Part shown: positions 12,657-58,770 of the stretch, piece by piece
Layout: each line of letters begins with the position of its first letter
Position numbering within the stretch: the stretch's first letter is position 1
Source of the DNA: Leucosporidium creatinivorum
Lineage: Eukaryota > Basidiomycota > Microbotryomycetes > Leucosporidiales > Leucosporidiaceae
DNA length: 64,000 bases
Direction of reading: 5' to 3'
Assembly (NCBI GenBank): GCA_001600635.1
Contig: BCKL01000040.1
Location: forward strand, 62,001-126,000
Translations under genes and position numbers: made by a program
The notes under the pieces: model-generated
Seen by the model: the letters and a program-made list of their open reading frames with translations, nothing else
Database searches by the model: none
Told to the model about the DNA's origin: nothing

Positions 12657-13881
12657 TTATGGCCAGGAGGTGAGCCGGCCTACCCTGGCTCCGTTGGTGC
12701 GGGCAATCCTCTCGAGTAACAGCTCGATCCCTCGCTTCTTGCACTCGATCCTGAGCGGCAACAGAGCATACGGCGGAATCTCAGCGATGCAGAGGAGCTT
12801 GATCTGACTGAGACGCGAGAGTGTTCTACAGTTCTCTTTGAGGAGGTTCGGCACCGTCTGCACCCACTGCTCGTCCACTCCGTGAAGGGAGAGCTGTCGA
12901 AGGATGCTCGGGATCGTTTTGATGAGTTTCGAATTGACGAAGTTGGTGGAGAACACTTCGAGCTGGTGGCATTGGCGGATGAAGGGAAGGAGCGAGTCCT
13001 CGGCGTCGTGTGTGCACTCGCAAGTGTAGCAAAGTTGGAGCTCACGGAGCTGGTTGGCGCTGTTGGGGAATTTGAAGGGGACCTTGAAGTAGTCTTGATC
13101 GCCCGAGAGAAGTATCTTGACGCTTCCAGTCGGGTTCGAGAGCAGTCGACCGATGAGAGCGAGCGGCCGCAGGCTCAGCTTTGCTTCTCCCCAAGCCTCG
13201 ACAACGAGGGTANCGAGACTGAAGGGTAGTTGAAGGGANCGGTNCNAAAGNGCCCGCNTCGTAGTTCCGAGCTTGAAGCCGATAGGACGAGTGAGGACGA
13301 GGTCTTTGAGACCTGCGAAGGATCGCCGAGATCAGATGGCATCTCGCGCTGGATAACGATCCCGACTTGCCTTGGAGAGATGCGCTGTAGAGCGAGAAAG
13401 CGCTCAGACTGTTAATACCTCCAAGTTGAAGGCTGAGCAAGCGGCTCGAAGCGATGATCGCTTCCACGAGCTCCCCGTCGAGCACGCTGCCCTCCTGAGC
13501 GACGATGCGGGCGTGACGGAGGGTTTCGAGCTGAGGGGACAGCAGGAAGCTGTTCAACTCCTGGTCGGTTTTGAGAGAGACGAAGTCCATGAGGACACGC
13601 TGGGAGTGCTCGCGCCAATCCGAGCAAACGAGGGAGGTGGTGCAGAGGAAGAAGCGCACGGCTTGCGCTTGATCACTGTCGGCAGTGATGCCGTCGGGAG
13701 TCTCGGCGCCTAGCTCGATGATGTGGTACACGAGCTCTGCTGGTAGCTTCTGCTGCTTCTCCGAGTCGATTTCGAGTCCCGCGAACTGAGCGTTCAACAT
13801 CGCTTGCTTTTCCTTCTTGAGCTTCCTCCTCGCTGCACCAGAACGCCTGCCGTGAGCTGTAGATTGTTGCTGAGCTTCCAT
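12657..13881 (-). CDS. F-box / LRR-like protein, family copy 1
   Basis: Exons 13881-13371 and 13312-12657, 388 residues. The N-terminus (MEAQQQSTAHGRRSGAARRK) is a basic block shared by four of the copies. An F-box follows: LPAELVYHIIELGAETPDG, then TTSLVCSDWREHSQRVLMD. The C-terminal half has repeated leucine-rich spacing (QLRELQLCYTCECTHDAEDS, IPSILRQLSLHGVDEQWV) as in LRR substrate-binding regions. F-box proteins usually link a substrate to SCF ubiquitin ligase through Skp1; the substrate here is unknown. The intron is GC-AG (GCAAGT donor at 13370), at the same place and phase as the GT-AG intron of the other copies. Several undetermined bases (13213-13258) fall in exon 2 but do not break the frame as far as can be read. 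Confidence 0.8.
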
Positions 13882-14502
13882 CCTGGTAGTGCGAGCTTGT
13901 TGGAGTTGAGAGCGGCGAGACGAGAGCGAGTCGAGCAAGTGGTAGAAGGAGGACAACAGACGGAGGAGGACTCGAGCGAGAAGGGGTTCGAGCGGTCGAG
14001 AGAAGAAGAGGAGGTGTCGAGGGTGATGAGGTCTTGTAGAGTACTAGAGCGAGTTTATTGCTAAGCTGGCTCCTGCTCAGCCCTCTCTTGGCTGTTCAAA
14101 TCGCCTACAGCTCGGGCTCGGCGCTCGAGGAGCCATCGCCGAGCCTCGCCGTCAGGCTGGAGGACGTCTAGTCGGCCCGCCGATTTCACCAGAACCTCAA
14201 GGAGTGCTGTTCAGACAATACAAGACCCCTGCCGAAGTCTCTAAGCCAGTTGAGTCTCCTACACGAGCCAGCTCTAGATTCTGTGCCCGGCGAAGGGGGC
14301 TCGCGCTTCGCAGTGGGCTGCCGGGTCTACAGCTTATAAGGAGGTGTTCGAAGACTATTCTGAGGCTTACATTAAGCACTCTACACTCCTCCGTCAAGCG
14401 CAAAGATGACAGGAGGTCTCTGAGCGCATCGAAAGCGGGGCGGTCAACTCCCGCTTTCGGGTCTGCCTCTGTCGACTTTCGCTGCTTCTGCTTTTGCTCG
14501 CG
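13882..14502. promoter_or_regulatory. Divergent region: F-box family 5' flank and kinase upstream region
   Basis: The part 13882-14130 matches the 5' flanks of the other F-box copies (shared blocks ggaggacaacagacgg and ctcgagcgagaaggggttcg). The rest up to 14502 should serve the kinase gene on the plus strand. No TATA box or known operator was recognised. Confidence 0.5.
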
Positions 14503-16479
14503 ATGGCTGCTGTACCGTGCAAGGTGAGTTCAATCATCGGGCTTTGCTCCCTCTCCCCAGCTCGTCGCTTAAAAGAAGCGAGCGGCGGGAGCGAGACCAG
14601 CAAGCTATACTTGGGTCTGCGAGCTGACTTGCTCCCTCGTCTTGTGGATGCTCGGAACAGTATCGAATCGGACCTGTACGTTCTCTGAGTGATATGACTG
14701 CTGTATCGGAGCTGACGCTGCCCTCCAGACGCTGGGAAGTGGGACTTACGCTGTCGTTCGCGAGTGTGTCTCGATAGAGACGGGAGACTACTTTGCTTGT
14801 AAAGTGAGTGCTCCCTAGCTAGTAGTGACTATCCTACTGCTCCGCTAAACCCTCCCGCTCGCCAGGTCATCTCGAAACGGCTCATGAAGGGGCATGAGAA
14901 GATGGTGAGCCTTCGGAGCTTTTGCTCGGCGTTGTAGTGCTGTCGATTGGCTTGACTCAGCTGGAGTAGACGAACTGACGCTGCGGTGCACCTCCCGCAG
15001 ATCGTCAACGAGATACGAGTGATGGAGCAGCTCTCCAAGGGCCACCCAAATATCGTTACGCTGCAGGGTGAGTTGGTGCATCTGCCTCGGGTCCTGTAGA
15101 TTCAGCTGATGGTGTTCCCTATCCAGACTACTTCGAGGTCCGTCCCCTTCTCTTTATCGCCCGAACTCTAGCTAATCCTCCCTTCTCGGCGCTCGCAGAC
15201 GGCCAACTCTCGTCAGTTCCTTTCCCTCTCACAATGGTTAGCCTCGCTGACTGTTGACGCGCTCGCAGTTTACATCATCACCGACCTTTGCCGCGGCGGC
15301 GAGCTCTTCGATCGGATCTGCAAGAAGAAGTTCTTCCGAGAGCGAGACGCCGCCAAGCTCGTGAGGAGTATCGTCGGCGCTGTGGAGTACCTTCACAGCA
15401 AGGGAGTGGTACATCGAGGTGAGCTTGCTTGCCTCCCATCTCTTCGATTCAGAGCGTCCAGCTGACAGCCGGAGAGAGCAGACATCAAGCCCGAGAACCT
15501 ACTCTTCGCGACCGAGGAGGACGATAGCGAGCTCCTAGTCGCTGACTTTGGGCTGAGCAAGATGGTGGATGAGAATACGTACTCGACGTTGAGCACCACG
15601 TGCGGTACACCAGCGTACATGGCTCCCGAGGTGAGCTCCCTTTTTCTCATCTTCTCGGCGCAGCGCGCACGAGCTGATCCTGGCGAGGGACAGATCTTCC
15701 GGAGACAAGGTTATGGCAAACCGGTGGATATGTGGGCGATTGGTGTGACTGCTTACTTCTTGCTGTGTGGTGAGTCGAGGGGCGGGCGTCCGAAGCGTTG
15801 AAGTTTCGTCCGAACGCCGAGCTGACTTTGCCCGCACCTCAACAGGCTACACACCGTTCGACAAGGACTCGCAAGCAGAGGAGATCGAAGCTGTCTGTGC
15901 TGCAGACTACTCGTTCACGCCCGAGCGGTTCTGGGTTGACGTCGGGCAGGATGGTACGTTCTCTCTCCTTCGCTCATTCTCGCTGCGTCAAGAGCTAACC
16001 CATCCCCCGTCTCATCACAGCACGAGACTTCATCAACTCGATCCTCCTCATCGACCCCACCAAGCGACTCACTGCCTCGCAAGCCCTCCAGCACCCCTGG
16101 CTCGCCTCCGTCACTTCTCCCGCTCCCTCCCCCGCCACCACTCCAACGGGACACCTCAGCCCCCTCCCGACCTCCTCCCCACTTTCAAGCAGCACGCCGA
16201 TCCTCGTATGAAGCTCAAGAGGAGCTTGCTCGCTGTGAAAGCGGTCGGGGATTTCAAGGACGAGGGGGAGAAGAGGAAGAGTCGGAGGGAGATGTGGGGG
16301 ACTGAGGAGAGGAAGGTCGTCGAGGAGGTGGAGAGGGCGCAAAAAGAGGCGGAGGAGGAGTCGGTAAGTGTGTTTGCTGTTGTGGTGAGAGGGGGAGAAG
16401 CTGACCTTCGACGACTCGGCCGACTTTGCAGGAGAAGGTAGAACTTGTTCATGAGAAGCCGACACAGTACGAGGGTTGA
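14503..16479 (+). CDS. Calcium/calmodulin-dependent protein kinase (CaMKI/CMK type)
   Basis: Fourteen exons: 14503-14523, 14661-14675, 14729-14803, 14866-14904, 15001-15067, 15127-15137, 15199-15211, 15269-15418, 15482-15630, 15694-15769, 15846-15953, 16021-16109, 16160-16363, 16432-16479; 354 residues with all phases closing. Landmarks: glycine loop YRIGPTLGSGTYAVVRECV, ATP lysine in YFACK, HRD-type loop VVHRDIKPENLLF, DFG in LLVADFGLSKM, APE in GTPAYMAPE, and subdomain IX DMWAIGVTAYFLLCGYTPFD. After the kinase domain, DLLPTFKQHADPRMKLKRSL and LLAVKAVGDFKD match the autoinhibitory and calmodulin-binding segment of fungal CMKs. That segment is reached only by removing a 50-nt intron at 16110-16159. 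The kinase would act in cytosolic calcium signalling. Five exons are shorter than 40 nt. Confidence 0.92.
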
Positions 16480-17283
16480 TAATGTGAAGGGTGTGTAGTA
16501 TATGCTGAGCTTAGTGGATGTATCGTATCTGTTGCACTTCGCCGAGAGTGGCTGAGAGTCGTCGGCGAGCTGAACAGCGCCGAAAAGACCCTCAGCGGGA
16601 GCTGTAAAGGGCCATTGTTCGAGGTGTAAAGCTATGAAGCTCTTTCAAAGCCGTCTGAACCGCCCTCGAGCTGTATAGTGGTACATATCAGAGCGCCGAC
16701 CCGACTCGCGGTCGTCTGAGACTTTCGCCCAAAGTCCGCCCCGCTTGCTTGAGAGGTTGAAGTTGCACCACACTCTGCTCGCCCGCTTCGTCACCTACTA
16801 GGGCACAACAGCTACTCACCTACAGCTCGCTTGCCTATCGTCCAGCAGCGCTCTCCTCTCCCTCTTCACGACTCCCTTCGACTGGCTCGAGCCCGCTCTC
16901 CAGCTCCAGCTCCCTCTCCCTCAACCTCTCGTCCAGGCGCCTCTTTTTCGGTGAGTTGAGCTCTACAGCAGCGGCAAGCGTTAGCGGTGGCTGCTAGTGG
17001 ACTGGGAGAAGGACCTGCAGAGCTCTGTAGCGCTACAGGTCGGCCAGCATGGTCGAAACAAGCGAGGATTCCACGACGCAGGAGGGGCGAGCTCATCTCT
17101 TTCGCCAGGGCGCCTCGGTGGGCGGTGAAGGCAGCTCCCAGGGTGCTGCAGAGGGTGTACAAGGCTACAGAGCTGCTTTGCACTCGTCTCTAGCCCTTCT
17201 TCGGCAATCGCACCGCCAGACGACCCGCGTCACGCCCTCAGAGAGCGCTAACCCCCTTCCCCTCTCTTGCTGCCCTACAGAAG
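16480..17283. other. Intergenic between kinase and striatin
   Basis: About 800 bp. No coding feature was recognised. The part just before 17284 is pyrimidine-rich, as is common upstream of fungal start codons, and probably serves as promoter and 5' UTR of the striatin gene. Confidence 0.4.
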
Positions 17284-20200
17284 ATGCTTCCCTGGAATCC
17301 GCCGAGCTCCTTCTCAGCGGGCAACGATCCCAATACCCAACAGCAGCAATATCGACCAAACTACTCTCAAGAGCAGCCTCAACAACAGCAACCTCAGCAG
17401 CAGCAGCAGCAGCAAGGCGGACAGTCTCAACAGCAGCCGAATCAGCCCCAGCAGCAGCAGCAGGCGGCTGGCGGACCACCAGCATACCCTCCCATGACTC
17501 TCGCCTCGACTCTGCATTTCCTCCAGTCCGAGCACCGGCGGTATGCCCGGGATCGCAACGAGTGGGAGATTGAGCGCGCTGAGATGAGGGCTCGCATCGC
17601 TTTGCTCGAGGGGGAGAAGCGCGGTAACGAGGGCGCTTTGAGGGATCTGGGACGGCGGTGTAAGATGCTAGAGAACGCGCTTAGGGGAGAACGGTGAGCA
17701 TCTTGTCGTCCGCCTGCGCCTCGAGGACCAGCTCGCTAACGCTTTACTCGCCCGTCTACCTAGATCCAAGTTCCTCTCGACCACCAACGCACTCGCTGCA
17801 GGACACACTCCTTCCGCTTCTGGCACCTCTTCGCCCGTTCACATCCCTCCAACCGCTGCCTCGGGCATCCCTCCCGCCAAGGCAGCTCAGCTCCTCTCGA
17901 ACCTCAACCCAGCCAAGGACGCCTCCTCCAAGGACTCGGGCACCGCTTCCCCTGCACCAGAATCTACCGCTATGGCTCCTTCTACTTCTTCGCCTGGGGT
18001 CGCTGCTCCTGCTCCAGCCGTGACGATCCAGGGCCCCGGGCATCAGAGTCGAGCGAGCAGTAGCTTGGGCTTGAATGGTGGAACGCTTAACGGTACATGG
18101 AACTCAAGTGCTGGAACGTTCGGAGGCGCTGGCGGCACTCTTGGAGCTGCGCGTGATCCTCGAGGTAAGGCTCGGAGTCGAGACTACCTCAAGCAGTGAG
18201 TTGTCCCTTCTCGCTTCCTTCGCTAGACGCTTGCTGACCGCTACTCCCTCACAAGATGCCTGCAAGAGATCACCTACCTCACCTCGGCCACGACGCTCAA
18301 CCCCCTCTCCGCGACCTCCTACTCGGCTCCCAACGTCCCCCGCCCTCGCAAAGTCCTCCCCGACCACGTTCCCGCACCAGGCGCTCCCGGCGTTTTCAAC
18401 GTCTCCTTCCCTCCTCGCGGCGACGCTCCTTCATCGACTTCCGCCGGCGCACCCCCCGCTCCAGCTCCAGCACCGCCATTGCCCTCCAGCTCGGCGAGCT
18501 TCGAGCTCCCACCTCAGCAGCAGGCGCCCATCGCTCAACCTCAATTCACTGCCGCCGCTCCTACGCCCCAGCAGCCCGCCCACCCCATCACCAAATTCCC
18601 CTCCGACCCCGCTTCGGCGTACGTGCCCCTCAAGCGCACCATCTCCCAACCGGGCGTCCCTGGAGGTCCTGGGACTGTGAGGGGTAGCGCTTCGGCGCTC
18701 GATGCTTTTACGCCGCAGCTGGCCGATAAGGCGGCTGCTATCGATGCGCAATTGGAGGAGATGGAGCGGAAGAAGAAGAGCAAGGAGGAGCCCGCCGTCG
18801 TAGAGGACAAGAAGGTCGAGGAAGCAGAGTCCAGCAGCGTCAAGGTCGATGAGGAGCAGCAACTGAAGGGCAAGAAGGACGAGAGCGACGTCCCCGCGTC
18901 GTCGTCTTCGTCGGAGGTGCGCCAACTTTCCAGCTCCCCCTCCCCTTCTGCCGCTTCCGCCCCTACTTCCTCTTCCCCTTCTTCGAACGATCTCGGTCCT
19001 AATCCCCCTTCCTCCTCGTCTCTTTCCTCCACATCAGACGACCGTTCCCACAGCACCGACTCCCACCCCCAATCCACCACCACCACCTCCCACTCGCTCA
19101 GACTCGGAGTCTCCACCGCAAACGGCTTCACCCTCGGAGACGACCGAGGAAGCGCCCCTCCACTCGACGTCGACGGAGGGACCGACGACGAAGGCTTCTC
19201 TGCCCTCGCTCGAGTTGGCCGACGAGAAGCTGGAGAAGGTCAAGCAGGACGAGTCGAGGGAGAGCGAGGAGGAGGAAAGCATGGAGGAGACGACGAGTAC
19301 ACCGCCACCATCCGACGACATGGAGGAGGAGGAGGGCGAGAGCTTGAAGGAGTCGATCTCGACGCCGGCAGCACCGAGCGAGGAGAAGGAGGAGCAGTAG
19401 GGCATGACGATCAGGATGGAACGGATGGGGATGCGGGAGGATCGAGGTTGACGGCCATCTTTCAACCCGAGTCCGATGAGCAGTGGCAGGAGCAGTTGAG
19501 GAGGGCGGGGGAGAGGGCGTATGGGAGTGGGGGAGGGACCGTCTCGAGAGCGAAGGGGAGGGGGAGGGGATCCGGGAAGGATGGAGAGGAGGACAACTTG
19601 GCGAGCTTGGATTGGGAGGATGAGGATGTGGGAAATGGGAGCGAGGAGAGGAAGGGCGAGCCGGCGTGGGGCGCTAAGAAGACGTTGAGGAGGTGAGCTT
19701 GCGATGACCATCACTTCCCCCTCCTCTCTTTAGCACCCCCCTTCGCTCGCCTTCATTTCATTATCTTGACCTGTCTTGTCGATTAGTCGATGAATAGCAT
19801 TCCTTTGACTTACGCCCGCCCGTTCCTCCTCTCGCAGTCATCTCGATGCTGTACGAGCACTCGCGTTCGTCTACGAGGTCAACGACAAGATGGTGCACTC
19901 GCTCGTGAGCGGAGGAGACGACATGGCGGTCAAGCTGTGGCGCAACTTGGACATTTCGGCTCCGTGAGTGGATTTTATCCTCCTTCTCTCGGTCGACGCT
20001 TCGCTGACCTCTCTATCTGCACCAGCGCACGCACCTCCACCGACACCGAACCCGTCATCACCTACCGCGGCCACACTGCTCCCATCACCTCCCTCGCCGT
20101 CTCGACCCGCAGCAACCACGTCTACTCTGGCTCGCTCGACTCGGACATCCGCATCTGGCGCCTCCCCGACCCCTCGTTCGACACCTACGACTCCTTCGAC

Positions 20201-21038: not shown

Positions 21039-21177
21039 GACGAGCGTCGAGCAGTAGAAGCGGACGTTGCATGACGACGACGACGATATAAACTCCTCAA
21101 ACACCTAGCAAAAGTAGTACTCTTCGTCTTTAGATATACCCCTCTCTCTCCTCGCAGCAGAGCAATTGAAACGCATT

Positions 21178-21219
21178 GAATATGGAACGAGGCGAGTCTG
21201 AATATGGAACGAGGCGAGT
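21178..21219. repeat. Two direct copies of a 20-bp unit
   Basis: The 20-bp unit beginning gaatatggaacg occurs at 21178-21197 and again, identical, at 21200-21219 with a 2-bp spacer. It lies between the convergent 3' ends of striatin and the arrestin-like gene. No function is known. Confidence 0.85.
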
Positions 21220-21306
21220 GGATTGCGATTACGAGAGAGAGAGAAGGGGGACTAGGGCAGAATAGGTGGCTTGAGGAATAGGAGAACTATAGAAGGGAAC
21301 ACTGCT

Positions 21307-26504: not shown

Positions 26505-26830
26505 GCTGCTGGCTCGTGGAGGGGAGTGTCGTGGCGAGAAGCAGGGATTAATCGACGCCCGAATTGAGGCGGAAGGCGAACGCGGCCCGAGCTCGGTCAG
26601 GAGTCCGCGGAGGCGTGTGCTTTGCCACGTTTCTGTAGTTCGTTACAGCGTGAGAGAGAGTCGGAACAGCGCGAGTCGGAAAGCGAGAGACGAAGAAGCG
26701 AAGTGAGAGAGGCAGATGAGAGAACCTACGCCGAGCATCGACTGTAAAGCCGCTCGAGCCCGAGTGCACTCATGTCACTGCATTTCGTTGTCTCTGAAAC
26801 CCTTCTGTACGCCGAACAGTTCCCATCACT

Positions 26831-32463: not shown

Positions 32464-32866
32464 AGCGATAGAGTGATGGGAGCTTAGGGAGGAGCCAGGA
32501 GGTTGATGACATATGCACGCATTTCTTGTTCCATCTCAGATCGCCCTGCTCCTGCTGGTAGACCGCGAGAGGGTGAGAGCGAGAACAAGTCGAGCTCGGC
32601 GATGGCTTGTCGAGCGCCAAGGTAGAGCTGTAGGCGAGCTGGGCAGCCTACAGCAGCTCGTGAAGGTTCTTGTATCACTTCACTTTACTCTCGAGCTCTG
32701 CAGCACTCCATCACCCTCAACAAACCCCTCTCTTCTCTCAGCCGCTCGAACCCCTTCTCGCTCACGGCCTCCTCCGTCTGTTGTCCTCTTCCCTCATCTT
32801 GCTCGTCTCGTCTCGTCTCGCTCTCGCTCTCGTTGCTCTCAGCTCCAACAAACATACTCGTACAGG
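32464..32866 (+). promoter_or_regulatory. F-box family 5' flank (copy 2)
   Basis: The last 250 bp or so match the 5' flank of the other F-box copies, including gccgctcgaaccccttctcg and the tgttgtcctctt block, in the same order. The upstream part just follows the PIN4-like stop codon. Confidence 0.55.
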
Positions 32867-34039
32867 ATGGAAGCTCAGCAACAACCTACAGCTCACTGCA
32901 AGCGCTCTGGTGCAGCGAGGAGGAAGCTCAAGAAGGAGAAGCAAGCGCTGCTCGACGCTCAATTCGAGGGACTCGAGATCGACCCGACCAAAGGATAGAA
33001 GCTGCCGCCAGAGCTCGTGTACCACATCATTCGCATCTCTGCTCCGGCCCCCGAGGTCCTCTACGCAAGCGATGCCGCTCGCGAGCATCGCCGCTTTCTC
33101 TCACGCCTTTCCCTCGTCTGCTCGCTCTGGAGGAGGGAAGCACAGTGCTTACTCTGGACAAGGATTACTTTACGTACAACCCACGCCATCCAAAGCTTCC
33201 TTTCAGGTGGACACAGGGCTCAGTCAACGCAAAAGCTGGACCTGGTCAGCGCCGAAACCCCGCCCATCGACGGCCAGCTCGTTCGTCAAGTCCTGGGAGC
33301 TACGCACTCACTCAAGTGTCTCAGTATCAGCGGCGTAGTCGGCCTAGATCCTGCGGCTCTCACTGGTCCTAGTTTGGCGGGTAGGTCTTTCGCCGTCGTC
33401 CTGCTCCTCGCCGAGCATGCTCACCTAACTTGCCATGGCAGACCTCCGCCAGCTTCTGCTTTACTCCAGCATCACCTACACTCGCCCTTCCTCCGTCAAC
33501 TGGCTCCGCCCCCACTTCCGCCTCGAGGACCTGGATTGTCGGTCGCTCGCCTGGACCCAAGCCGAGTTCCCCAGCCGACTCTTGGTCGCCCTTCTTCAAG
33601 CTACGACAAGATCGGTGAACTTGGCGCTTGCGACATCTCTAAGCCTACGGCTATCCAACAAATCACCCGCTCTCCATTTCGACGCCTCGCCCCACTCACT
33701 CCAAAGGCTCACTCTCCTTCACCTCCGACCCGATTTCTACTCCTACTTCCTTCCCTTCATCGACACGCTGCATTCTCTTACATCCCTCACGCTTGACCAC
33801 ACCAATCCCTTGCTCTTGCAGACCCTCCTTCTCCACTCGCCGAGCTCAACATCGCAATCTCACCGAGGGAGGATTTCGCACTCGAGAACTTCGCCATTGG
33901 AGCTGGCTTTACCAGCCTCTCCAAATTGAAAAGGTGGTGGATTATCGGTGCAGAGGTCAGGTCTGGGGGTGCTACAAAGTTCGGCGATGAGTGCCAGAAG
34001 CGGGGAGTTAAGCTTGTGTGGGGGCAGAAGAGCGACTGA
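32867..34039 (+). pseudogene. Broken F-box / LRR-like gene, family copy 2
   Basis: Two exons by homology: 32867-33380 and 33442-34039. It keeps the family N-terminus (RSGAARRKLKKEKQALLDAQ), the F-box (LPPELVYHIIRISAPAPEV, then SRLSLVCSLWRREAQCLLW) and LRR-like spacing in exon 2. An in-frame TAG at 32996-32998 replaces the Trp codon seen in the 45.7-kb copy, 43 codons after the start. A second break is an apparent 1-nt insertion near 33836, after which the matching frame is LAELNIAISPREDFALENFA up to the TGA at 34037-34039. With two independent breaks it is most likely a pseudogene, though the intron is still spliceable. Confidence 0.82.
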
Positions 34040-34399: not shown

Positions 34400-35679
34400 A
34401 TGCCCGACATTCAGCCGCCATCGTCCTTTACCCACCAGCTCGACCACCTATCCCTCCAACCCGGCTCCGAGAGCCCACGTCTCTGCGTCGACGTCGTGCA
34501 TCTGGTCCTGCAAGCTGCCTGCCCTGCTGTCAAGAAGCAGGAAAAGTACATCATTGCCGCCCAGGAGGCTTATCGACTGCTCTGCTCCACCGCCCTCGTC
34601 TGCTCGGCGTGGAGACGACCAGCGCAATCGCTTCTCTGGCGTCACGCATACTTGCAGTCGGCCGGTCGAGCCGCCGCCTTCAAGCGAGTTGTTCATCTGT
34701 ATCCGACCGTCTCTATGCGCTCTGAGGACTGGCCGGAGCGGCCGGGACCGGTGATCGGGGGCTTCGAAGGGAGGCTGGTGCAGGAAGTGCTGGACTCCAG
34801 CTTAGATGGATGTTTGAGGTCGCTAGCGCTGGTGGGAGTGAGCGGCTTGGATCTCCAAGCCTTGATCGACTCGCCAAAGCTACATGGTGCGTTGGTTAAT
34901 GCCCGTAACGGCCAGACGGAAGCTGACCACTTCGCCGAGCAGGGTTCAAGAGGCTGTCGCTGGATTACGAGATCGGCTACAAACCTGCGTCACCTCTGGC
35001 AGCTAGCTATACCACACCGACATTCACCCTCGACTATCTATACCTTCGCCACCCAATGAGCCGCGCTCGATTTTCGGCGCCGATTCCTGGCCCCCAACTC
35101 GCCGCCCTTCTCTCCGCCGTCACCAATCGACTGGTGCTCTCCAGGTCGGTGTTCAGTCATCTTGACACTACAGCCTCACATGAGCTCCCCATCTGCCCAC
35201 TCCCACCCCTCCGCTCCCTGCGAGTGATTAAGGTAAAGTGGCCCTCGGCACTCGATCCTCTTGTGCCCCTCCTCGCCCGAGGCGCTTCTCTCCCCCGTCT
35301 CGAGATCCCATACCTTCCGTCAAAGCTTCTAGAGCGATATCCACTCCCTATAACGCACCTCAAGGTGTTTAACGGATACTCATCGGCGGTCTTCGACGTT
35401 GAGATCTTCATCGAGCTGCGCCGAGGCGGCGTGAAGGCTATGGACGGGCTTGAGACGGTTGAGATAACGATGAATGAAGGAGAAGACGAGAGGCGGGACT
35501 TCTTGTTGTGTGAGTTGGAGAGAGTAGGGATCGCCATGCAGGTCACTTGGCAAAAGGTAAGCCTTCGCCGAGCCCCTCCGAACATGCGCCTCGAGCTGAT
35601 CGCTGGCTCTCCTTGCCAGCCTCGTCAGCTACCAAAAGGGTTAGTGCTGTATAGCTCAGATGAAGATGATGATTACTAG
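34400..35679 (+). CDS. Divergent F-box family member, copy 3
   Basis: Exons 34400-34886 and 34943-35679, 407 residues. The N-terminal block of the other copies is missing; instead the protein starts MPDIQPPSSFTHQLDHLSLQ. An F-box-like region is visible: CVDVVHLVLQAACPAVKKQE and then LCSTALVCSAWRRPAQSLLW, matching the LVCSxWRxxAQxxLW pattern of the family. The phase-1 intron lies at the equivalent place. The C-terminal half has LRR-like segments (PPLRSLRVIKVKWPSALDPL, LPITHLKVFNGYSSAV, GLETVEITMNEGED). It ends in an acidic SSDEDDDY. No breaks were seen, so it may well be functional as a substrate receptor, but the partner is unknown. Confidence 0.7.
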
Positions 35680-35752
35680 TGCCTTGAAAATGCCACGCCT
35701 GCTTATTACGTTCAGCTTCCTATCGCCGAACCGCCTCGTTCCGGCATCTAGC

Positions 35753-45094: not shown

Positions 45095-45718
45095 AGTTTT
45101 GAAGAGAGTGAGCAGACGAGAGAAGGAAAGAGGAAGAGAGGAGGAGGAGGGAAAGGGAGGGAAAGGAGAACAAAGGCAAGGGAGCGAGACAAAGAGCGAG
45201 ACATGCGAGTGTCTTCGAGCTCGGCGAGAAGCTGCTGAAAAGGTGCAGGAAGTTGAAGTGAGTAGGGGTGATACTCTGTCGGGGTCGATTCGCTACAGAA
45301 ACCGCTTTGCAAAGGCAATCCGGCTCTGATGAGATGATGAGGTGCATATCGAGCACTGAAAGTGGCAGGGCGCATCGACTATATCTCATCTTGACGGGCA
45401 GAGCTTCAGCTGATGGCGAACGTCCTCTGCTCGGCTGCGAACTCGAGTGCCGATGCTCGGCGACGGCAAGTTGGGCGCCGAGTTCGAGCTGTAGGCGAGT
45501 CGAAGGGCCAAAGGGACCGTGAAACGATCCTGTATGGGAGTCGATCAATGTAAAGCTTTACCACACTTCATCACCTTCAACACCTCCTCTCCTCCCTCGT
45601 CGCTCGAACCTCTTCCCGCTCGAGCCCTCTCTCGTCTGTTGTCCTCCTCCCACATCTTGCTCGTCTCGCTCTCGCTTACGCCGCTCTCAGCTACAACAAG
45701 CTCACTCGCACTACTAGG
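45095..45718 (+). promoter_or_regulatory. Divergent region: P450 upstream and F-box family 5' flank
   Basis: The last 240 bp match the family 5' flank (tgttgtcctcctcccacatc and the following tcttgctcgtctcgctctcg). The flank is clearly more diverged from its partner at 58662-58920 than the coding parts are. The outer part belongs to the P450 gene. Confidence 0.5.
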
Positions 45719-46949
45719 ATGGAAGCTCAACAACAACCTACAGCTCACGGCAAGCGCTCCGGCGCAGCGAGGAGGATGCTCAAGAAGGAAAAGCAGGCGT
45801 TGCTCGACGCTCAATTCGAGGGACTCGAGATCGACCCGACCAAAGGATGGAAGCTTCCGCCGGAGCTCGTGTACCACATCATGGACCTTGTGGCCCCCAC
45901 TCCTGAGATTAGCCTCTACAGCAACGCCGCTGGAGAGTACCGGCTCCTCCTTTGCCGATTGTCGCTAGTTTGCTCGCTCTGGAGGGAAGCCGCCCAAGGA
46001 CGCCTATGGCGCAACAGTGTGCTGAAGACGGAACATGCCGCCCGGTGCTTACTCCTCGGAGGTACCAAGCTTTGCCGTCAAACGCAGGTCCTCACCGTCG
46101 AAGGCGGCAGCCTCGGCGAAGGCAGGCCTATCGCTGGCTCCATCGTCCACCAGATCATCGCGGAAACACAGGATTTGAGCTTCCTCGGTCTCAGAGGCGT
46201 TGTCGATCTCGACATGGACGCTCTCACCGGGCCAAATTTGGAGCGTGAGTATCGGCTCAATCTCGGCGAGCCTGAGCTGACTCGCTTCTCTAGACATCAA
46301 GGATCTGTACATCAGCGAGACGGTCGAGTTCAGTCTTACAAAAACGTACGAACCGCTGAAAGCGCCGTTCACCCTGCAAAGGCTCGAGTTCACCTCCTTC
46401 TGCTGGACCGAGCCTAACTTCCCGAGCGCTCTCTTGGTCGCCCTCCTCGAAGTCACCATCTACCGCGCCTCAGTCCAGGTTATCTCGCCAGTCCTATCGG
46501 CACAGCAAACCACTGGACCGGAGTCGAATACGTTTGCGACGATCGCCNGAGCCGCCAGCCTTCCCAACCGAAGTGCACTCCCTCGTTTCTCCCCGATACC
46601 CCTTCCCATGGAATGGCTCTACTTCAACGGTGTCGAGCCTTCAACAATAAGCGCTTTCCGTCCTTTCTTTGCCCAAACCACCTCCCTCGTTCGACTCGAT
46701 TTGGACATCACGCTCCCCTTCCTTCTCCAGACGCTCCCCCACCCGCTGCAGGAGCTCCGCATCTGTGAGATCACCTTTGGCACCTTTGAAGTCGAGCTCC
46801 GCGTGCTTTGCGCCGGTCCAGTCAGCCTCTCACAGCTGCAGACCTGGTACTTTTGCTTTCCGGACCCGAAGTCGGAGGGCTCCCTCAAATTCGGGGAGGA
46901 AGCCGGGAAGAGAAGGGTCGAGGTGGTATGGGACGGAGACCTGGAGTAG
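45719..46949 (+). CDS. F-box / LRR-like protein, family copy 4
   Basis: Exons 45719-46244 and 46294-46949, 393 residues. The family N-terminus (MEAQQQPTAHGKRSGAARRM) is followed by the F-box: LPPELVYHIMDLVAPTPEIS and CRLSLVCSLWREAAQGRLWR. Exon 2 carries LRR-like segments (HIKDLYISETVEFSLTKTYE, QTTSLVRLDLDITLPFLLQT, HPLQELRICEITFGTFEVEL). The frame is open throughout apart from one undetermined base at 46548. It is a close paralogue of the gene at 57431-58661 in the opposite arm; amino-acid differences cluster in exon 1, and exon 2 has only a few. Probably an SCF substrate adaptor, with unknown target. Confidence 0.8.
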
Positions 46950-47144
46950 AGACCTCCCTTTACGATTGTAACACCGCTCAGACCAACTGAAGACCCACGA
47001 GAGCCTTGCTCTCTCCCGTCTTTGACCGCGCACTTTCGGCGGTCGAGTTCGCGCCACTTTCTCTTCTCAACCGAGTGCATGGATTTCGGCGTGACTCTTA
47101 TACATGCTCAACATCAAGTCCATATGCGCCGCTCACCCGCCAAC

Positions 47145-47312
47145 CCACTACTCGGCCCATCCTCGCCCTTGCGCTCCTCCCCCTACTATCCTCACCCTTG
47201 GCGCTCTCCTCACCAATCCCCTCCCTCGCCAAAGCTACAAACCTCGTCAACCTGGGCAAGCAAGTCCAATGCTCTCTCAACCAGTAGCTACCTCGTTGCT
47301 GAGAAGGGACGG
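47145..47312 (-). pseudogene. Decayed copy of the last exon of the unknown gene
   Basis: Read on the minus strand, this stretch matches 57060-57228, the C-terminal coding end of the intact gene at 55352-57228 (segment encoding YWLREHWICLPRLTRL). The parent stop codon TGA is CGA here, and the sequence before the matching part is unrelated. It is a duplication remnant without the rest of the gene. Confidence 0.75.
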
Positions 47313-47491
47313 CGCGGTCGGCCTCGAGTGAGGGAAAGAGGCAGATTCGGCGCCGAGGGAGCGCCGAGGGATCGCCTTCGCTACTTTGCTCCCTTTCTCA
47401 GTCCTCGCTTGGCTCGCCAAGTGCTTGAAGTCCCTCATATAGCTTCCTTTTCCGTGTCTATTGCGCTGTCAACAAGCTCTACTATCGCCTT

Positions 47492-50400: not shown

Positions 50401-52021
50401 GGCTGCTCCACTCGGCTCGGCGTCCTTGACGGCTCGTTTCGGCGCTAGAACACCATAGGGAGGAAGAAGAGCGACGAGATTCGCTAGAGAAGGCTCACGA
50501 GCACCTCGGTGCTAGCAAGACCCCTTCAAGCTCGATCAGCCTGCTCCTCCTCAATGCTCGGCGCCGGACTCTTGCGCTCATGCACAGCCCGAGCGCAGAT
50601 GGAGCCGCCTTCGCACAGCTACAGCGAATCGCTTGACTGACGCTGCAACGCCAGCACAGCGAAGTCGGTAGCGTCCCCAGCTAGCTCCGTCCTGCTCCTC
50701 CTCGCTGCTCGGCCGACTCTGCACCGAGCAGTCAGCTTGCGAGAGAGCACGCCGTGATCGAGACGGAGAGGCAACATCGCCAGTGCTCTCGCGCCAGCCA
50801 TCTGGCCTCAGTCTCGTCCGGCGATGCTCCTCGCCGTCTTCGCCTCGTGATGCTCTACGCCGAGGGCGAGCTCAACCGAGAAGGAAGCAAGCAAGATTCG
50901 CTACGACAGAGATGCCTACAGCAGCACCTTAGCGCTCATGAAAGACTCTCAAGCCCTGCGCGTCGCCAGCTCCTTCCTCTGGCGCGCCCAACAGTGTTTG
51001 AGCTTTGCGCAGAGCCTGCGCCACTCCGAGCAGAGTAGCAGGTCCAGAAGATGAGGGAACAGAGCGGAGCCTTTCAGCGCACTGGCGCCGAAGAACACCG
51101 CTCGACAACCCAGTCTAGCCTGCTCGAATGCCTCGGTCTGCTCATCGCCGAGCGGCAAGCTGGTCCGGAAGCGAAGTAGACCGGCTACGATGGTGACGAG
51201 AGACGGAATCGCTAGCACTACAACGCGAAGCGCCAGCGAATCCGTCTCAAGTCCTGTAGCTTGCCCGCTCCTCTCCGGCTGCCTGCAGCACCAGCTCGGC
51301 GCTCTCCCTTGTCCTCCTTCTCCTCTCCCTCCCAGCCCTGTCATGAGCCCACACCCTGACAGCGCACTCGCAACAGCAAACATCCCATCCAGAAGCACTC
51401 TCAACTCACATGACCCTCCCATACAACCCAAAAAACGCCGAATCAATGAAGGCCAATCCGAGGATCGGGCCGGCGGCACCAGCAAACAGGAAGCGGATGC
51501 CCTCTGCTCGCCAGAGAGCGGCGAGATTTGCTGGTGGTGGCTGTTTCGAGGTGCTGGAGGAAGAGGAAGGAGAAGAGGTGGAAGCGGGAGGGGAGGACCG
51601 GCCGACGCGGTTGGAAGGGACTCGGGCGGGTTGGGTTTGGAGGCGGACTTTGAGTACTTCGAGGCTGTTGCCGAGCGTTAGCGAGGTGAGCTTGGGTGCA
51701 GCAGGAGAGAGTAGGAAGGGGAAGTAGCGAGGAGAGAGCAGGAGCAAGGGGACGAACGGGTTGGAGACGAGGATACCGACTGTAGGGGAGCAGCAGGAAA
51801 TTAGTGAGCTGTTACAGACTGAAGAGAAGGCCCCTGCGCTATGGCCCCGAGCTGTAGGGCATTGCTTGACCGGCTTCTCCCTAAGAAAAGACGCGGCTGC
51901 TCGGCTTCTCTGTTGAAGACTCACCTGCTCCTCCCAACCAGCCTGCAATCAAGTCCGAAGTGGTATCCGCTTCATGCTGCTGTTGCTGCTGTACAGCTAC
52001 AGATGACTGCCGGTCCTCCAT
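47492..52021 (-). CDS. Mitochondrial carrier family (SLC25) protein with a 2.6-kb intron
   Basis: Exons 52021-51925, 51779-51758, 51664-51410, 48829-48730, 48674-48503, 48434-48218, 48153-47717, 47553-47492; 453 residues. All three repeats show the carrier signature: NPLEVLKVRLQTQ, ETPIEVVKCRAQVESG and YPFDIIKTRLQTS, each preceded by a glycine-rich helix (DLIAGWLGGAVGILVSN, RVFLAGATAGGLCAMLE, RILLAGGLAGALSAIVP). Long Ser/Pro-rich insertions after the first and third motifs make it larger than the usual 300 residues. It would sit in the inner mitochondrial membrane; substrate not assigned. Exons 3 and 4 join in phase (GRVMQQLDQDR) across 2,580 nt. The last 20 codons are the least certain part. 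Confidence 0.85.
48830..51409 (-). other. Giant intron of the mitochondrial carrier gene
   Basis: GTGAGT donor at 51409 and CAG acceptor at 48830-48832, 2,580 nt. Other introns in the window are mostly 50-120 nt. Within it I see no open frame with a recognisable domain, no transposase and no inverted ends. It is rich in GAGC/GCTC words, CAGC and CGGCG clusters but without a clear repeat unit. It could be an old insertion decayed beyond recognition. Confidence 0.7.
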
Positions 52022-52305
52022 GGCCCGCTAAAGGGCGGGAAAGCGAGCAGAGTCGCGTGGAGAGGTGAGAGAGCTTGGAGAGAGGGAGGGCTGCTGTAGG
52101 ATGGTAGAGTAGCCGAGTAGTGAAGAGGTACAGCTGCTCCCTTTGAAAGCTGAGAGATACAAGATACGAGCAGGACGAGGTCAGAAGCCAAGAGGGGTCG
52201 GCTGCTTTCGCTTTGATTTCTTCTAAGTCCTCAGACTGTCCTCAGCCAGCGAAGGGCCGACTCACTCTGCTCTCTCCCTTTTACCTCTTCCCGACTTTGA
52301 CAACT

Positions 52306-55061
52306 ATGCCTCGTAAAGGATCTAAACGCAGAAAGACTCGCACTCATGTACGCTCCAGTCTGTAGCTCTTTAGCCCCGCCTTCTGAGCCGCTCAAAATCT
52401 CTAAACTTGCGTCCTCTCTTCGAAACAGGTCAAACCGGCGGAATCAGTCGATCCCAACTTGCCCAAGACGCCCAAATCCTTTGTAGTCAAATCGGGCACT
52501 GTAGGAACCTCAGTAGCAGCTTTAACCAAGGATGTACGAAAGGTGTTGGAGCCCAACACGGGTTCAAGGTTGAGGGTAAGAAGCCGCTTTTTGCCTTTCA
52601 AGCTGTCTTTGGCGCTGTAGCCTTCTAATCGGAGTGTAAGACCTAACCCACCACACGACGTTACACAGGAACGGAAAGCCAACCGCCTGCGCGACTACGT
52701 CTCCATGTCTGGCCCTCTCGGCGTCACCCACCTGCTCGTCTTCTCCCAGCCCCCAAACGCCGACATCACCGCCCTACCCAAGCTACACAAATCGGGTCGA
52801 CAGGAGAATGAGGAGGAGCGTGCGGATCGCTCGCTCGTAGAGGGCACCACGACGTTGAACCTCAGGCTCATTAGGCTGCCCAGGGGACCGACCCTCAGCT
52901 TCAAGGTGTTGAGGTACTCGTTGGCGGCCGATGTGTTGAGGATGGCTAGGAGGCCGAGGAGTATTGGGAGGGAGTTTGCCGAGGGTCCTTTGGTGAGTAG
53001 TCTTCGCTTTATCTCAGCTGGCCGTGTCTTCTCTCAAGTCTCAGCGCCGAGCAGAAGAGCTGACCCTTCTCTCACTTCCCCGCTCCAACAGCTCATCCTC
53101 TCGGGATTCGGAGGCGAGGACAAGCAACTCAAGCTTATGACTACCGTCTTCCAGAACCTTTTCCCCCCCATTCACGTCCAGTCGGTTCGTCGCGCTCCTT
53201 CCTTTCTCTCGGCGCTGGTCGTTCCAGCTCGGCCGCTAATGCGCTCCCTTTTCTTCTGTTCTCTTCTCCCCTCCTTCTTCTTCTTTCCTCTCCTCTCTAT
53301 CTCTCCTCTTCGTCCCGCTCTTCCTCGCCCTCCTCCACTCGCCTCCCGCTACTCCTCCAACAGATGCCCCTCTCCTCGGCCCGCCGCGTCGTCCTCCTCT
53401 CCTACAACCCCGTCACCCGCACCATCGACTTCCGTCACTACGTCATCTCTGTCCGCCCCGTCGGCGTCTCGCGCCCCATCCGGAAAATCATCGGCGGCTC
53501 GACCAACAACAAGGCGCCTGCTGTCCCTCTTTCCCGGAAGCGCCTTGCTGCGCAGAGTGGAAGCGAGGAGGAGAGTGAGGAGGAGGAGGGATACAGTGTG
53601 AAGAGTGTGGGAGGGGGGAGGGCCAAGGGCATTTTGGATTTGAGCCGAGCGGACGATATCTCGGATTACATCCTCCGGCATGAGGGCATGGGGTTCATCA
53701 CTTCTGATTCGGAGATGTCGGATCAGTCGGACGTCGGATCGCAATCCGGCGCGTCGAGCGGGAGTGAGGAGGATGAGAAGAGGGGGAAGGTTAGGTTGGC
53801 GGGGGATTATGTGGGGAGGGGGAATAGGGGAAGGGGGGTGAAGGGGGAGAAGAGGGCGGTTAGGCTCGTGGAGTTGGGCCCGAGGTTGGAGTTGGGTCTC
53901 GTCAAGGTCGAGGAGGGGGTGGGAGAGGGAGAGGTCATGTTCCACGAGATGGGTGAGTTCGGTCGGGTGGAAAAGCTCAGTGGAGAGGAGGGGTCGCTGA
54001 TCTTCTCTCTTGTTCTCTCTTGTTCTCTCCCTCACTACTTGCCGCCCTTCTCACCTTCTCGCTTCAACTTCGCCACTCGCCTCGCTGCTGTCCTTCCCAC
54101 TCCCTCCTCGCCCTCCCCTACTCTCCGCCCGCCCCATCTCACCACCCCTCCCCTACGACACACCACAGTCCACAAATCCGTCACCGAAGCCGCCCAACTG
54201 GCCAAAGCGCACGCCGCCAAGCGCAAGCTCGCAGCCGAACGTCGCGCCGAGCAAGCCGCCAACGTCGCCGCCAAGAAGGCCGCCAAGAAGGCTGCGAAGA
54301 AGGCTGCTGGGGAGGAGGTTTCCGGCGATGAGGATGAGGATGAGGATGATGTGGCGGAGGAGGACAAGATCGACTCGGATATTGAGTTTGATTATGAGGA
54401 GGAGCATGGGCTTAACGTGCCCGGCGCGGCGAGTGATGAGGAGTTGGATGGGGGAGGATCGAGCGACGAGGATGAGGAGGAGGAGGATCAGATGGCCGTG
54501 GATTCCTCGGCCGACGACGACGAGTTCGACGAGGAGGAGGAGGCCATCATCGACCCCGACGAGGCCTACTCCGACTCCGAGGGATCCGACATGTCTCCCA
54601 TTCCCTACCACTCTGGCGACGAGTCGGCCGATGAGGAGCCCGAGGACGAGGAGAAGTATGGCGGTCAAGAGGACTACATCGACTCTGCGCCTCCCCTCAA
54701 GAAGATTGCTCGGTCCAACTCGCACTCGTCCCGGCCCGGAGGAGGAGCCACCTCGTTCAAGCACAAGCCTTTCACCAAGCAGGAGCGCGCGCCGGCCAAG
54801 AGGGCGATTGGAATCGCCCTTCCTAAGGGACCTAGTAAGAAGGAGGTCAAGAGGCAGCAGGAGACGGAGAGGAAGGAGGGCAAGCCCAAGGGGAATGCGG
54901 AGGATCGGAAGGAGGAACAGAAGGAGAAGGAGGGCAAGTATGGAAGGGGTGGAGGAAGGGGGGGAAGTAGGGGCGGAAGGGGAGGCGATCGCGGCAGCTC
55001 GAGGGGTGGTGGAAGGGGTGCTAGTAGGGGTGCTAGTAGGGGTGGTAGGGGTAGGAAGTAG
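52306..55061 (+). CDS. SSF1: SSF1/PPAN, Brix-domain ribosome assembly factor
   Basis: Exons 52306-52347, 52429-52575, 52669-52992, 53092-53184, 53364-53952, 54169-55061; 695 residues. Starts MPRKGSKRRKTRTHVKPAE as in Ssf1/Peter Pan proteins. Brix domain landmarks: RLRDYVSMSGPLGVTHLLVF, TTLNLRLIRLPRGPTLSFKV, LILSGFGGEDKQLKLMTTVF, FPPIHVQSV and RRVVLLSYNPVTRTIDFRHY. The C-terminal half is lineage-extended: acidic (EEDEDDD-type runs), a KKAAKKAAKKAA block, then RGG-like GGRGGSRGGRGGDR repeats. The protein acts in the nucleolus in 27S pre-rRNA processing for the 60S subunit. The RGG tail is encoded by short tandem repeats (about 54945-55055). Confidence 0.93.
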
Positions 55062-55351
55062 GGGCATGGTGAATAACAGCGCTTGTATCATCTTACTCTC
55101 GGCGCGAGAGAGCAGCGATTGGGTTCGGCTGAGCTTCGGTGAAGAGCTGCAGGCGTACAAGAGCGGCGCGATCTTCGGCACAGGCTCTTTACTAGCTCTA
55201 ACAAGCTCTCCGACCACCCTGCAGTCTTTCTCGACCGACTCGCGAACCCCGAGCGAGACGGAAGACCGCCGCGAGTGTGTTTGAGCTTCACTCGCTCCTG
55301 CCACAGCTCTTGGTCTCGCTCCCATCTTCTATAGAGTACCAAAAGGCGCCC
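55062..55351. other. Intergenic between SSF1 and the unknown gene
   Basis: About 290 bp between two plus-strand genes. It should contain SSF1 3' end and the next promoter. Nothing specific recognised. Confidence 0.4.
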
Positions 55352-57228
55352 ATGTCGACCTCGCCGACTCAAGGTAAGCCCCTCCCCACTATGCTGCACC
55401 TCATCATCGCCCCTTGTTCTCACGCCGAGCGCTTCTTGAGCAAAAGCTGACTCGCTTTCTCTCGCTCTCATGCAGACGCCGCCGCTCGAGCAGCCCGTCG
55501 AATTACATTACCTCCTAGCGCTCAAGGGTTGAGGCAGTACACCCCCTTCGAGGAGGATAGGACTTCGGCACCGAGCACGCCTGTCGATCCGAGGTGGAGG
55601 GAGGGGGCTACGAGGGTGGCTGTTGAAGGAGCGGGATTGGAGAGCAGGAGGGGTAGTAGGGAGTTGAAGAGGGAAGGTATGTGCTCTGTACTGCGATCTT
55701 TAGGAGAGGGAAGGTGAGCTGACCTACAGAACCCACGACCGAGCAGGTTCAGCTCCGGGCCTTCGCATGGGTCGGCCCTCGCCTCTCCTCGGTCCAGCGC
55801 CTCAGCACCTCCCCATCCGATTCCTCACCGGTAACTCGAACTACAGCTCCGTCACTCCCTCGCCCATGAGCACACCTTTCCGCTCCCGCTCGGCTTCCCC
55901 CGAGTTCGAGCGCCGTCAAGCTTCGGCCACTTCCACCCTCAGCGACGGAAGGGAGTTGCTCGCTCATGCGGATTCCTTCCCTTCCTTCCATCTCTCCCAC
56001 ATCGAACGGCAAGAAGGAGGAGCAATCAATAGCGCCGAGCCTTTCCCGCTTCATTCGCCTCCCCTCAACTCGCCGAACGGTCAAGGCTCGTCTTCTCGCT
56101 CGCCCTCGCCCCTCCCTTCGCCGGACTACACCTTTCCCGCTCGTCCTCCTCCCATCTCCATCGCACCTGCTCCACCCTCCCCCCCTCAACTGAAGCGCAA
56201 GCCGAGCCTGCAACCCACCGATCCGGATCCTCTCATCTCCGTCTCGCCTCTCGCGGGAATGGCGCCCCTCGACAAGGATCAGTGGAGCAGGTTGACGGTA
56301 TCTGCTCCTCCGAGCTTGGTGAGGGAGGGTGGAAGCAGCGAGAGTAGCGGTCAGAAGTCGGACGTCGAGGATAATGGAGGCGATAGCTCGGCGTCGAGGC
56401 AGCCTCCCATGCTGAAGGAGGCGAGAGAGAAGGTCCTCTCTGTCTCTGCGGAAGCGGTCCCTACGACCTCGTCGAGGAGGGGTAGCTTTGTAGAAGATAG
56501 TACAGAGACCAAGAGCGTCAGCCCGACGGACTATTTCTTCCCTCTTCCTCCCACTTCGGACTCGTCGCCCTTCGCCGGCACTCTTCCTCTTCACCTTTCC
56601 GTCCCTCGTGTGCGGTCTCTGGGCTCCCTCCCCCGCTCCTCCCCTCCCTACAACCTCCCTCTCACCGGCTCGCCCTCCTCCCCTCCCTCGCCCAAGCCGA
56701 AGATCAAAACTCCCCTCTCTCCTCGCCGAGCGCTCTCCCTCGAGCAACGACAAGCGCAGAGGATCGCTGAATTGGAGAGTGAGGTGGATATGCTGAGGGA
56801 TAGGGAGGATGACTGGGAGGTGCAGGCGGAGGAGTTGGTGCAGAGGGTGGAGGAGATGGAGAGGGTCGCGAGAGGAGGGATTGAGGGCGTGTTAAGCGAG
56901 TTGGGGGTCGATTTGGTGCGTTGTGGTTGCTCTTCCTCTCTGCGGTTGTTCTCTTACTGATGGAGAACGACAGACCTGACCTCCTGCATCTCAACAGGCG
57001 ACCACCACCCCTATCATCCTCTCGCCCTCCTTCGCCTGCCTCGCTTCCTGCCCCGTCTGCTCGCGCGAGGTCCCTTCCCAGCACCGAGGTAGGTACTGGT
57101 TGAGGGAGCATTGGATCTGCTTGCCTAGGTTGACGAGGCTCGTAGCTGTGGCGATGGAGGAGATTGGGGAGGAGAGCGCCGAGGGTGAGGACAGTAGGGA
57201 AAGGAGCGCGAGGGCGAGGATGGGCTGA
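55352..57228 (+). CDS. Unknown Ser/Pro-rich protein with coiled coil and Cys-containing C-terminus
   Basis: Exons 55352-55373, 55476-55676, 55747-56915, 56998-57228; 540 residues, phases closing, TGA at 57226-57228. Residues 1-330 are Ser/Pro-rich and low complexity, with repeated SP and RSxS sites that could be phosphorylated. A short coiled coil follows (ALSLEQRQAQRIAELESEVD, then DDWEVQAEELVQRVEEMERV). The C-terminus is a compact segment, ILSPSFACLASCPVCSREVP then YWLREHWICLPRLTRL, with a CxxC pair and later Cys and His residues that might bind a metal. I do not recognise the family. It is the parent of the decayed fragments at 1640-3540 and 47145-47312, and its 3' end is in the inverted repeat. 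Confidence 0.75.
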
Positions 57229-58770
57229 GTAGTGGGTTGGCGGGTGAGCGGCGGATATGGACTTGATGTTGATAATGTTTAAGAGTCACGCCGAAATCCT
57301 TGCACTCGGTTGAGAAGAGAAAGTGGCGCGAACTCGACCGCCGAAAGTGCGCGGTCAAAAACGGGAGAGAGCGAGGCTCTCGTGGGTCTTCAGTTGGTCT
57401 GAGCGGTGTTACAATCGTAAAGAGAGGTCTCTACTCCAGGTCTCCGTCCCATACCACCTCGACCCTTCTCTTCCTGGCTTCCTCGCCGAATTTGAGGGAG
57501 CCCTCCGACTTCGGGTTCGGAAAGCAAAAGTACCAGGTCTGCAGCTGTGAGAGGCTGACTGAACCGGCGCAAAGCACGCGGAGCTCGACTTCAAAGGTGC
57601 CAAAGGTGATCTCACAGATGCGGAGCTCCTGCAGCGGGTGGGGGAGCGTCTGGAGAAGGTAGGGAAGTGTGGTGTCCAAATCGAGTCGAACGAGGGAGGT
57701 GGTTTGGGCAAAGAAAGGACGNAAAGCGCTTATTGTTGAAGGCTCGACACCGTTGAAGTAGAGCCATTCCATGGGAAGGGGTATCGGGGAGAAACGAGGG
57801 AGTGCACTTCGGTTGGGAAGGCTGGCGGCTCNGGCGATCGTCGCAAACGTATTCGACTCCGGTCCAGTGGTTTGCTGTGCCGATAGGACTGGCGAGATAA
57901 CCTGGACTGAGGCGCGGTAGATGGTGACTTCGAGGAGGGCGACCAAGAGAGCGCTCGGGAAGTTAGGCTCGGTCCAGCAGAAGGAGGTGAACTCGAGCCT
58001 TTGCAGGGTGAACGGCGCTTTCAGCGGTTCGTACGTTTTTGTAAGACTGAACTCGACCGTCTCGCTGATGTACAGATCCTTGATGTCTAGAGAAGCGAGT
58101 CAGCTCAGGCTCGCCGAGATTGAGCCGATACTCACGCTCCAAATTTGGCCCGGTGAGAGCGTCCATGTCGAGATCGACAACGCCTCTGAGACCGAGGAAG
58201 CTCAAATCCTGTGTTTCCGCGATGATCTGGTGGACGATGGAGCCAGCGATAGGCTTGCCTTCACCGAGGCTGCCGCCTTCGACGATGAGGACCTGCGTTC
58301 GACGGCAAAGCTTAGAACCTCCGAGGAGGAAGCACCGGGCGGCGTGTTCCGTCTTCAACACACTCTTGCGCCATAGGCGTCCCTGAGCGGCCTCCCTCCA
58401 GAGCGAGCAAACGAGCGACAGTCGGCAAAGGAGGAGCCGGTACTCTCTAGCGGCGTTGCTGTAGAGGCTAATCTCAGAAGTGGGGGCCACAAGGTCCATG
58501 ATGTGGCACAGGAGCTCCGGCGGCAGCTCCCATGCTTTGGTCGGGTCGATCTCGAGTCCCTCGAACTGAGCGTCGAGCAACGCCTGCTTTTCCTTCTTGA
58601 GCTTCCTCCTCGCTGCGCCGGAGCGCTTGCCGTGAGCTGTAGGTTGTTGTTGAGCTTCCATCCTAGTAGTGCGAGTGTGCTTGTTGGGGCTGAGAGCTGC
58701 GAGAGCGAGACGAGCAAGATGTGGGAGGAGGACAACGGACGGGAGAGGGCTCGAGCGAGAAGGGGTTCGA
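57060..58770 (-). repeat. Inverted repeat, right arm
   Basis: Matches the reverse complement of about 45600-47312. It starts inside the last exon of the unknown gene, so that gene end and the convergent F-box gene were duplicated together. Undetermined bases occur at 57722 and 57832; the latter is at the same place as the one at 46548 in the other arm. Confidence 0.85.
57431..58661 (-). CDS. F-box / LRR-like protein, family copy 5
   Basis: Exons 58661-58136 and 58086-57431, 393 residues, identical in structure to the gene at 45719-46949. The F-box reads LPPELLCHIMDLVAPTSEIS and CRLSLVCSLWREAAQGRLWR. Exon 2 has the same LRR-like segments (HIKDLYISETVEFSLTKTYE, HPLQELRICEITFGTFEVEL). Open frame throughout apart from two undetermined bases. 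It is convergent with the unknown gene, whose stop codon is about 200 bp away. Likely an SCF adaptor; target unknown. Confidence 0.8.

Follow-up and report, generated by a model that had tools for sequence, protein, structure and literature searches.

The 64,000-nucleotide stretch of Leucosporidium creatinivorum DNA analysed here (the window; C40:62001-126000, where C40 is contig BCKL01000040.1 of a 27.7 Mb genome in 63 contigs) holds five copies of a predicted F-box/leucine-rich repeat (LRR) gene, most of which share a similar 5' end in front of very different coding sequences. How does such a family come to combine a constant front with a variable body, and what might it do? Our favoured answer, which we hold at a probability of roughly 0.55, is that these genes belong to a chromosomally clustered family of FBXL-type substrate receptors of SCF (Skp1-cullin-F-box) ubiquitin ligases whose members couple a near-constant front cassette to a hypervariable body. 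The cassette consists of the 5' untranslated region (5'UTR), a basic N-terminal helix and the start of the F-box. This answer rests on the F-box motif and Pfam matches, the predicted LRR fold, the fixed intron, selection that is purifying on average, the constant cassette, and the mixed histories of fronts and bodies. The features concerned are, in window coordinates:

12657-13881, minus strand: copy 1; exons 13881-13371 and 13312-12657, GC-AG intron 13370-13313; open, 388 aa
13741-14006, minus strand: constant front cassette of copy 1, from -125 to +141 relative to the ATG
32867-34039, plus strand: copy 2, broken; exons 32867-33380 and 33442-34039
32742-33007, plus strand: constant front cassette of copy 2
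34400-35679, plus strand: copy 3, divergent; exons 34400-34886 and 34943-35679; open, 407 aa
45719-46949, plus strand: copy 4; exons 45719-46244 and 46294-46949; open, 393 aa
45594-45859, plus strand: constant front cassette of copy 4
57431-58661, minus strand: copy 5, twin of copy 4; exons 58661-58136 and 58086-57431; open, 393 aa
58521-58786, minus strand: constant front cassette of copy 5
8955-9190, minus strand: orphan front flank without a gene body, abutting 8918, the end of a duplicated SPT6 segment

A first-pass annotation, made from the sequence alone, had proposed these five F-box genes (strands -, +, +, +, - in window order) and the orphan flank. The genes were confirmed, and so was the flank, which aligns to the 5' flanks of the four window copies with a basic N-terminal block (N-block) at 74-83% over 138-237 columns. 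Scripted splicing placed one phase-1 intron after codon 162-175 in all five copies, with a GT donor in four and a GC donor in copy 1, whose frame is open with that donor; the LVCSxWR signature is likewise found in every copy (LVCSDWR, LVCSLWR, LVCSAWR, LVCSLWR and LVCSLWR in copies 1-5), as the annotation had it for both. Its claim that the N-block was common to all copies stood for four of the five, since copy 3 (34400), which begins MPDIQPPSS, has the F-box motif and the intron without the block. Copy 2 is broken twice, by a premature stop at codon 44 (32996-32998) and by a frame change in exon 2, in agreement with the earlier reading of this copy. The F-box-like model PF12937 (cut-off 24.3 bits) scored above cut-off in copies 4 (31.5) and 5 (35.4) and below it in copies 2 (20.2) and 3 (19.6), while for copy 1, whose body holds six single Ns, the Pfam search reported neither this match nor any other; in a wider set, 15 of 17 members matched at E<=0.1.

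The family extends far beyond the window. The 314-bp front of copy 5 gave 40 genome matches, and the 49-residue N-block gave 43, which resolve to 41 loci after removal of two duplicates from the overlap between contigs C35 and C40. These loci are distributed as C40 10, C35 9, C14 17, C1 2, C3 2 and C16 1, so that 36 of the 41 fall on three contigs making up 1.10 Mb (4.0% of the genome), 19 of them on the joined C35+C40 (374,649 bp). The scale of 50 kb given in the first pass was thus too small, the expansion being on the scale of a chromosome. Fourteen of the 17 C14 loci form seven divergent (head-to-head) pairs with 818-828 bp between N-block matches. In the four pairs that were read the start codons lie 764-769 bp apart, one gene beginning MEAQ and its partner MAD or MTE, with a conserved promoter of ~770 bp between them. 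A short exact palindromic upstream element, considered as a mark of the family, had only four exact matches genome-wide.

The concentration of 36 loci on three contigs, together with the divergent pairs on C14, could also be expected of a selfish or non-self recognition system (drive, allorecognition) belonging to one chromosome. We regard this as quite improbable: the STE3 and homeodomain genes lie on other contigs, and toxin-antidote behaviour is not something that can be read from sequence. At the level of contigs, linkage to mating type was rejected, as STE3 matches occurred only on C25 and Homeobox_KN matches only on C24, with neither on C14, C35 or C40.

The front and the body of these genes differ sharply in divergence. 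We extracted 36 copies in all, and the subset used differs by analysis: 17 copies with full models (136 pairs) for divergence, 20 for flank distances, 26 for the body tree, and seven of the 136 pairs for omega. The set of 17 leaves aside three broken N-block copies, copy 1 (for its GC-AG intron), four copies lacking the N-block, eight members of C14 pairs that were broken or truncated at the end of their locus, C1_449710, and the C16 and C3 copies. A front of ~270 bp, comprising the 5'UTR and 47 codons, stays similar ahead of bodies that are near saturation. The ~130 bp upstream of the ATG diverge by 0.298 on average, and the N-block has a pS of 0.285, against a body pS of ~0.65 and pN of 0.46-0.54. 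At four-fold sites divergence is 0.19 in the N-block and 0.62 in the body, being lower in the N-block in 135/136 pairs; GC3 is alike in the two parts (0.67 and 0.70). In sliding windows, many pairs show 85-98% identity around the start codon, then ~45%. The body tree clusters by contig, with 7 label changes compared to a shuffled mean of 14.0 (as low in 0/200 shuffles); most of its deep branches are weak, and its median end branch is 1.02 changes per site.

Recent duplicates show where fronts and bodies part. Copies 4 and 5 are recent twins, made by an inverted 1.75-kb duplication with arms 95% identical:

45564-47316, plus strand: arm with copy 4
57064-58811, minus strand: arm with copy 5

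Over the 130 bp upstream of the ATG these twins differ at 13/124 sites, but in the body at only 8/778, and the far flank of copy 5 is closest to that of copy 130971, not to that of its twin. A second recent pair, 75881/40572, differs at 15/122 sites in the flank and 18/774 in the body, so that in both pairs bodies 98-99% alike stand behind 5' flanks 10-12% different. A third pair, 6068/138263, differs at 49/130 and 97/762 sites, respectively. The converse occurs in 4477/139851, where far flanks are 87-97% alike, near flanks differ at 13/125 sites and the bodies are unlike (416/769). Finally, C14 units 140 and 148 agree through one of their two genes and into the common promoter as far as its middle (3/889 and 0/428 differences), and beyond that junction differ at 60/338 sites within the promoter and 189/413 in the other body. 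Because bodies saturate behind similar fronts, and because the bodies of twins outmatch their flanks, the sequences indicate that front and body do not share one history, the breaks between them lying within or next to the constant cassette.

The first-pass annotation had viewed the genes as a fast birth-and-death family. Births are evident in the 1.75-kb twins, and deaths in the three broken copies among 20 single N-block copies; plain birth and death, however, explains neither similar fronts with saturated bodies nor twin flanks that outdiverge their bodies. These alignments further call for exchange at the front, either by itself or together with constraint. Within C40, 10 duplications of at least 1 kb have 40 ends, 14 of them no more than 500 bp from a cassette start (mean of 3.0 under rotation, P 0.0035), but several of these duplication pairs are plain family-gene homology, and the argument therefore rests on individual junctions rather than on the enrichment. 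A mobile element with two fixed ends was rejected, as the twins' homology stops 1,597 and ~2,870 bp past the start codon.

It is possible, although we favour it less, that the cassette is fixed by nucleotide-level selection on the promoter, 5'UTR and N-terminal targeting sequence, the bodies having simply diverged and the twin breakpoints being incidental. Two observations speak for this. Four-fold divergence in the N-block is 0.139 and 0.202 between contigs, compared to 0.120 within C40 and 0.273 within C35; being as low between contigs as within C40, it counts against a purely local process. Distances in the 5'UTR and further upstream correlate (rho 0.30, P 0.001). Not every copy follows the constant-front pattern, as C35_130495 and C40_6068 carry unlike 5' flanks. 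Copy 40572 is broken, so that its front may have decayed, and near-identical copies may be imperfectly resolved in the assembly. Constraint alone, however, predicts that the fronts of twins should be at least as alike as their bodies, and can yield neither the two twin pairs, whose fronts are less alike, nor the abrupt switch of C14 units 140/148 inside their shared promoter; exchange is therefore required, and we think, from these comparisons, that both exchange and constraint act on the front.

A further alternative is that the recent twins and the junctions are assembly artefacts of near-identical repeats or haplotypes. The 146 kb of C40 that were read contain 14 single-base Ns, every one of them in the F-box body of a recent twin (window 13213-13258, 46548, 57722 and 57832; C40:41141-41160), and the ends of C35 and C40, left unmerged, share a 19,034-bp overlap (a length from the match offset, of which 3,034 bp were directly compared, at 100%). 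Nevertheless the twins differ at scattered sites and occupy different surroundings, and most copies, judging by the median end branch, are far too diverged to be confused, with the constant-front pattern holding among them. Moreover, the eight single Ns in the C35 stretch read lie outside N-block copies, and Ns are thus not peculiar to this family. We consider an artefact very improbable.

Selection bears on a further alternative, neutral genomic drift as for many plant F-box genes, with functionless copies coming and going. This model is set out in the consulted part of PMC3030570, and the three broken copies and the orphan front are in keeping with it. However, 17 of the 20 single copies are open (the N-block copies on C40 (10) and C35 (9) and C14:715691, a count that excludes the C14 pairs and the C1, C3 and C16 copies), and each of the seven pairs measured has an omega (dN/dS) below 1. 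These values, which are pair averages, most of the 136 pairs being saturated, are 0.06-0.40 for the N-block, 0.22-0.36 for the F-box and middle, 0.26-0.56 for the C-terminal part and 0.29-0.41 for the whole body. Selection is thus purifying on average, with no average positive selection seen, and drift is an unlikely explanation.

What the proteins are was approached through a predicted model of one member from outside the window, which supports an LRR body and has FBXL2, SKP2 and FBXL17 as its best matches, tied with CD14. Given this match to F-box/LRR proteins, the family most likely comprises substrate receptors of SCF ubiquitin ligases. The first pass did not recognise the family; the F-box/LRR expansion that it described was upheld, and the predicted fold now allows the family to be placed as FBXL-like. 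Pfam LRR models had no match in the family proteins searched, a PDB sequence search returned two matches (E 0.27 and 1.4), both to unrelated proteins, and a search for relatives on viral contigs gave two pattern matches, neither of them confirmed by tblastn. The family resembles the FBXL receptors in its F-box and, by predicted fold, its LRRs, and differs from them in a basic N-block of ~43-47 residues before the F-box, a hypervariable body, dozens of copies and a shared 5' flank.

If our preferred reading holds, the proteins would bind SKP1 and present a variable LRR face to changing targets, and the common front would give the bodies shared expression and localisation. The dispersed cassettes may serve as homology patches for ectopic recombination (gene conversion or one-sided copying), which would join bodies to other fronts, with duplication and decay altering copy number. 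The likeliest selective reason would be recognition of varied and changing proteins, such as parasitic elements, non-self or stress proteins.

Similar fronts are not unique to the N-block family, as constant 5' blocks also occur in F-box groups on C26 (5' block 68-92%, bodies ~50%, in 3/3 pairs compared) and C22 (68-97% in 1/3 pairs). From these groups we tentatively entertain a more general proposal, of a eukaryotic receptor-diversification system in which cassettes, single or in bidirectional pairs, act as recombination anchors. Such anchors would repeatedly set new LRR bodies behind a common promoter and N-terminus, producing a changeable ubiquitin-ligase repertoire.

Clusters of F-box-like matches were also seen on other contigs (e.g. 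C26, C8, C22), apparently as local subfamilies. At least 128 PF12937 matches were identified in the genome (six-frame search; 150 of 330 candidates scored), and 32 PF00646 matches. The consulted part of PMC10662464 gives averages of 34.6 and 22.2 for Rhodotorula genomes, which are annotated counts, unlike the six-frame matches here; that of PMC4469406 reports F-box domains as depleted in Microbotryum (7, compared to 3-18 in eight other species and 43 in Agaricomycetes).

F-box expansions are already known, and the constant-front, variable-body arrangement is the unusual part. We did not find such an F-box architecture described in the open-licence literature searched, most subscription papers being outside that scope. 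Plasmodium var genes are a multigene family of surface antigens with a conserved 5' flank, a variable body and ectopic exchange. The present family is like them in its constant, presumably regulatory front, its variable body and its proposed ectopic exchange, although its products are predicted to be intracellular. Caenorhabditis elegans likewise has many lineage-specific ubiquitin-ligase adaptors evolving by birth and death, for which the consulted passage of PMC4334554 reports strong positive selection in substrate-binding domains, where we find an average omega below 1, and mentions no constant 5' cassette. The plant F-box superfamily shares the large, unstable copy number, pseudogenes and duplications, but the part of PMC3030570 consulted stresses tandem arrays, whereas the copies here lie scattered between other genes and show junctions of front and body. 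F-box expansions have so far been explained by arms races or neutral drift, and a family that combines a constant front and hypervariable bodies with recombinant junctions, all within one chromosomal region, offers a direct test of whether new bodies come to stand behind unchanged fronts. If true, cassette-anchored exchange would be an added mechanism for diversifying eukaryotic intracellular recognition.

The copies are scattered among ordinary genes, as first described, with SPT6, 2OG-Fe oxygenase, alcohol dehydrogenase and Brix-domain genes nearby. SPT6 and an acyltransferase-like gene make up part of a 5.4-kb segment that is present in two copies, 92.5% alike, one at window 3541-8918 and the other from window 62072 to C40:129446. 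The homology to the first copy begins inside SPT6, leaving that copy without the start of the gene, and the segment's ends are adjoined by F-box genes or by the orphan flank. The orphan flank's closest cassette is that of a broken copy at C40:40265-40479 (82%), and an origin as the body-deleted remnant of the gene beside the other SPT6 copy was rejected, that cassette being only 72% alike. In the middle of the F-box region, C40:17316-37651 contains inverted repeats (67-83%) that are nested over ~20 kb and include few long open frames; GC content does not fall over the repeats at C40:17-38 kb, as a centromere reading would have it. A diverged duplicated stretch (67-79%) lies at window 1708-3421, where it includes a 200-base N gap (2262-2461), and at 56140-57061.
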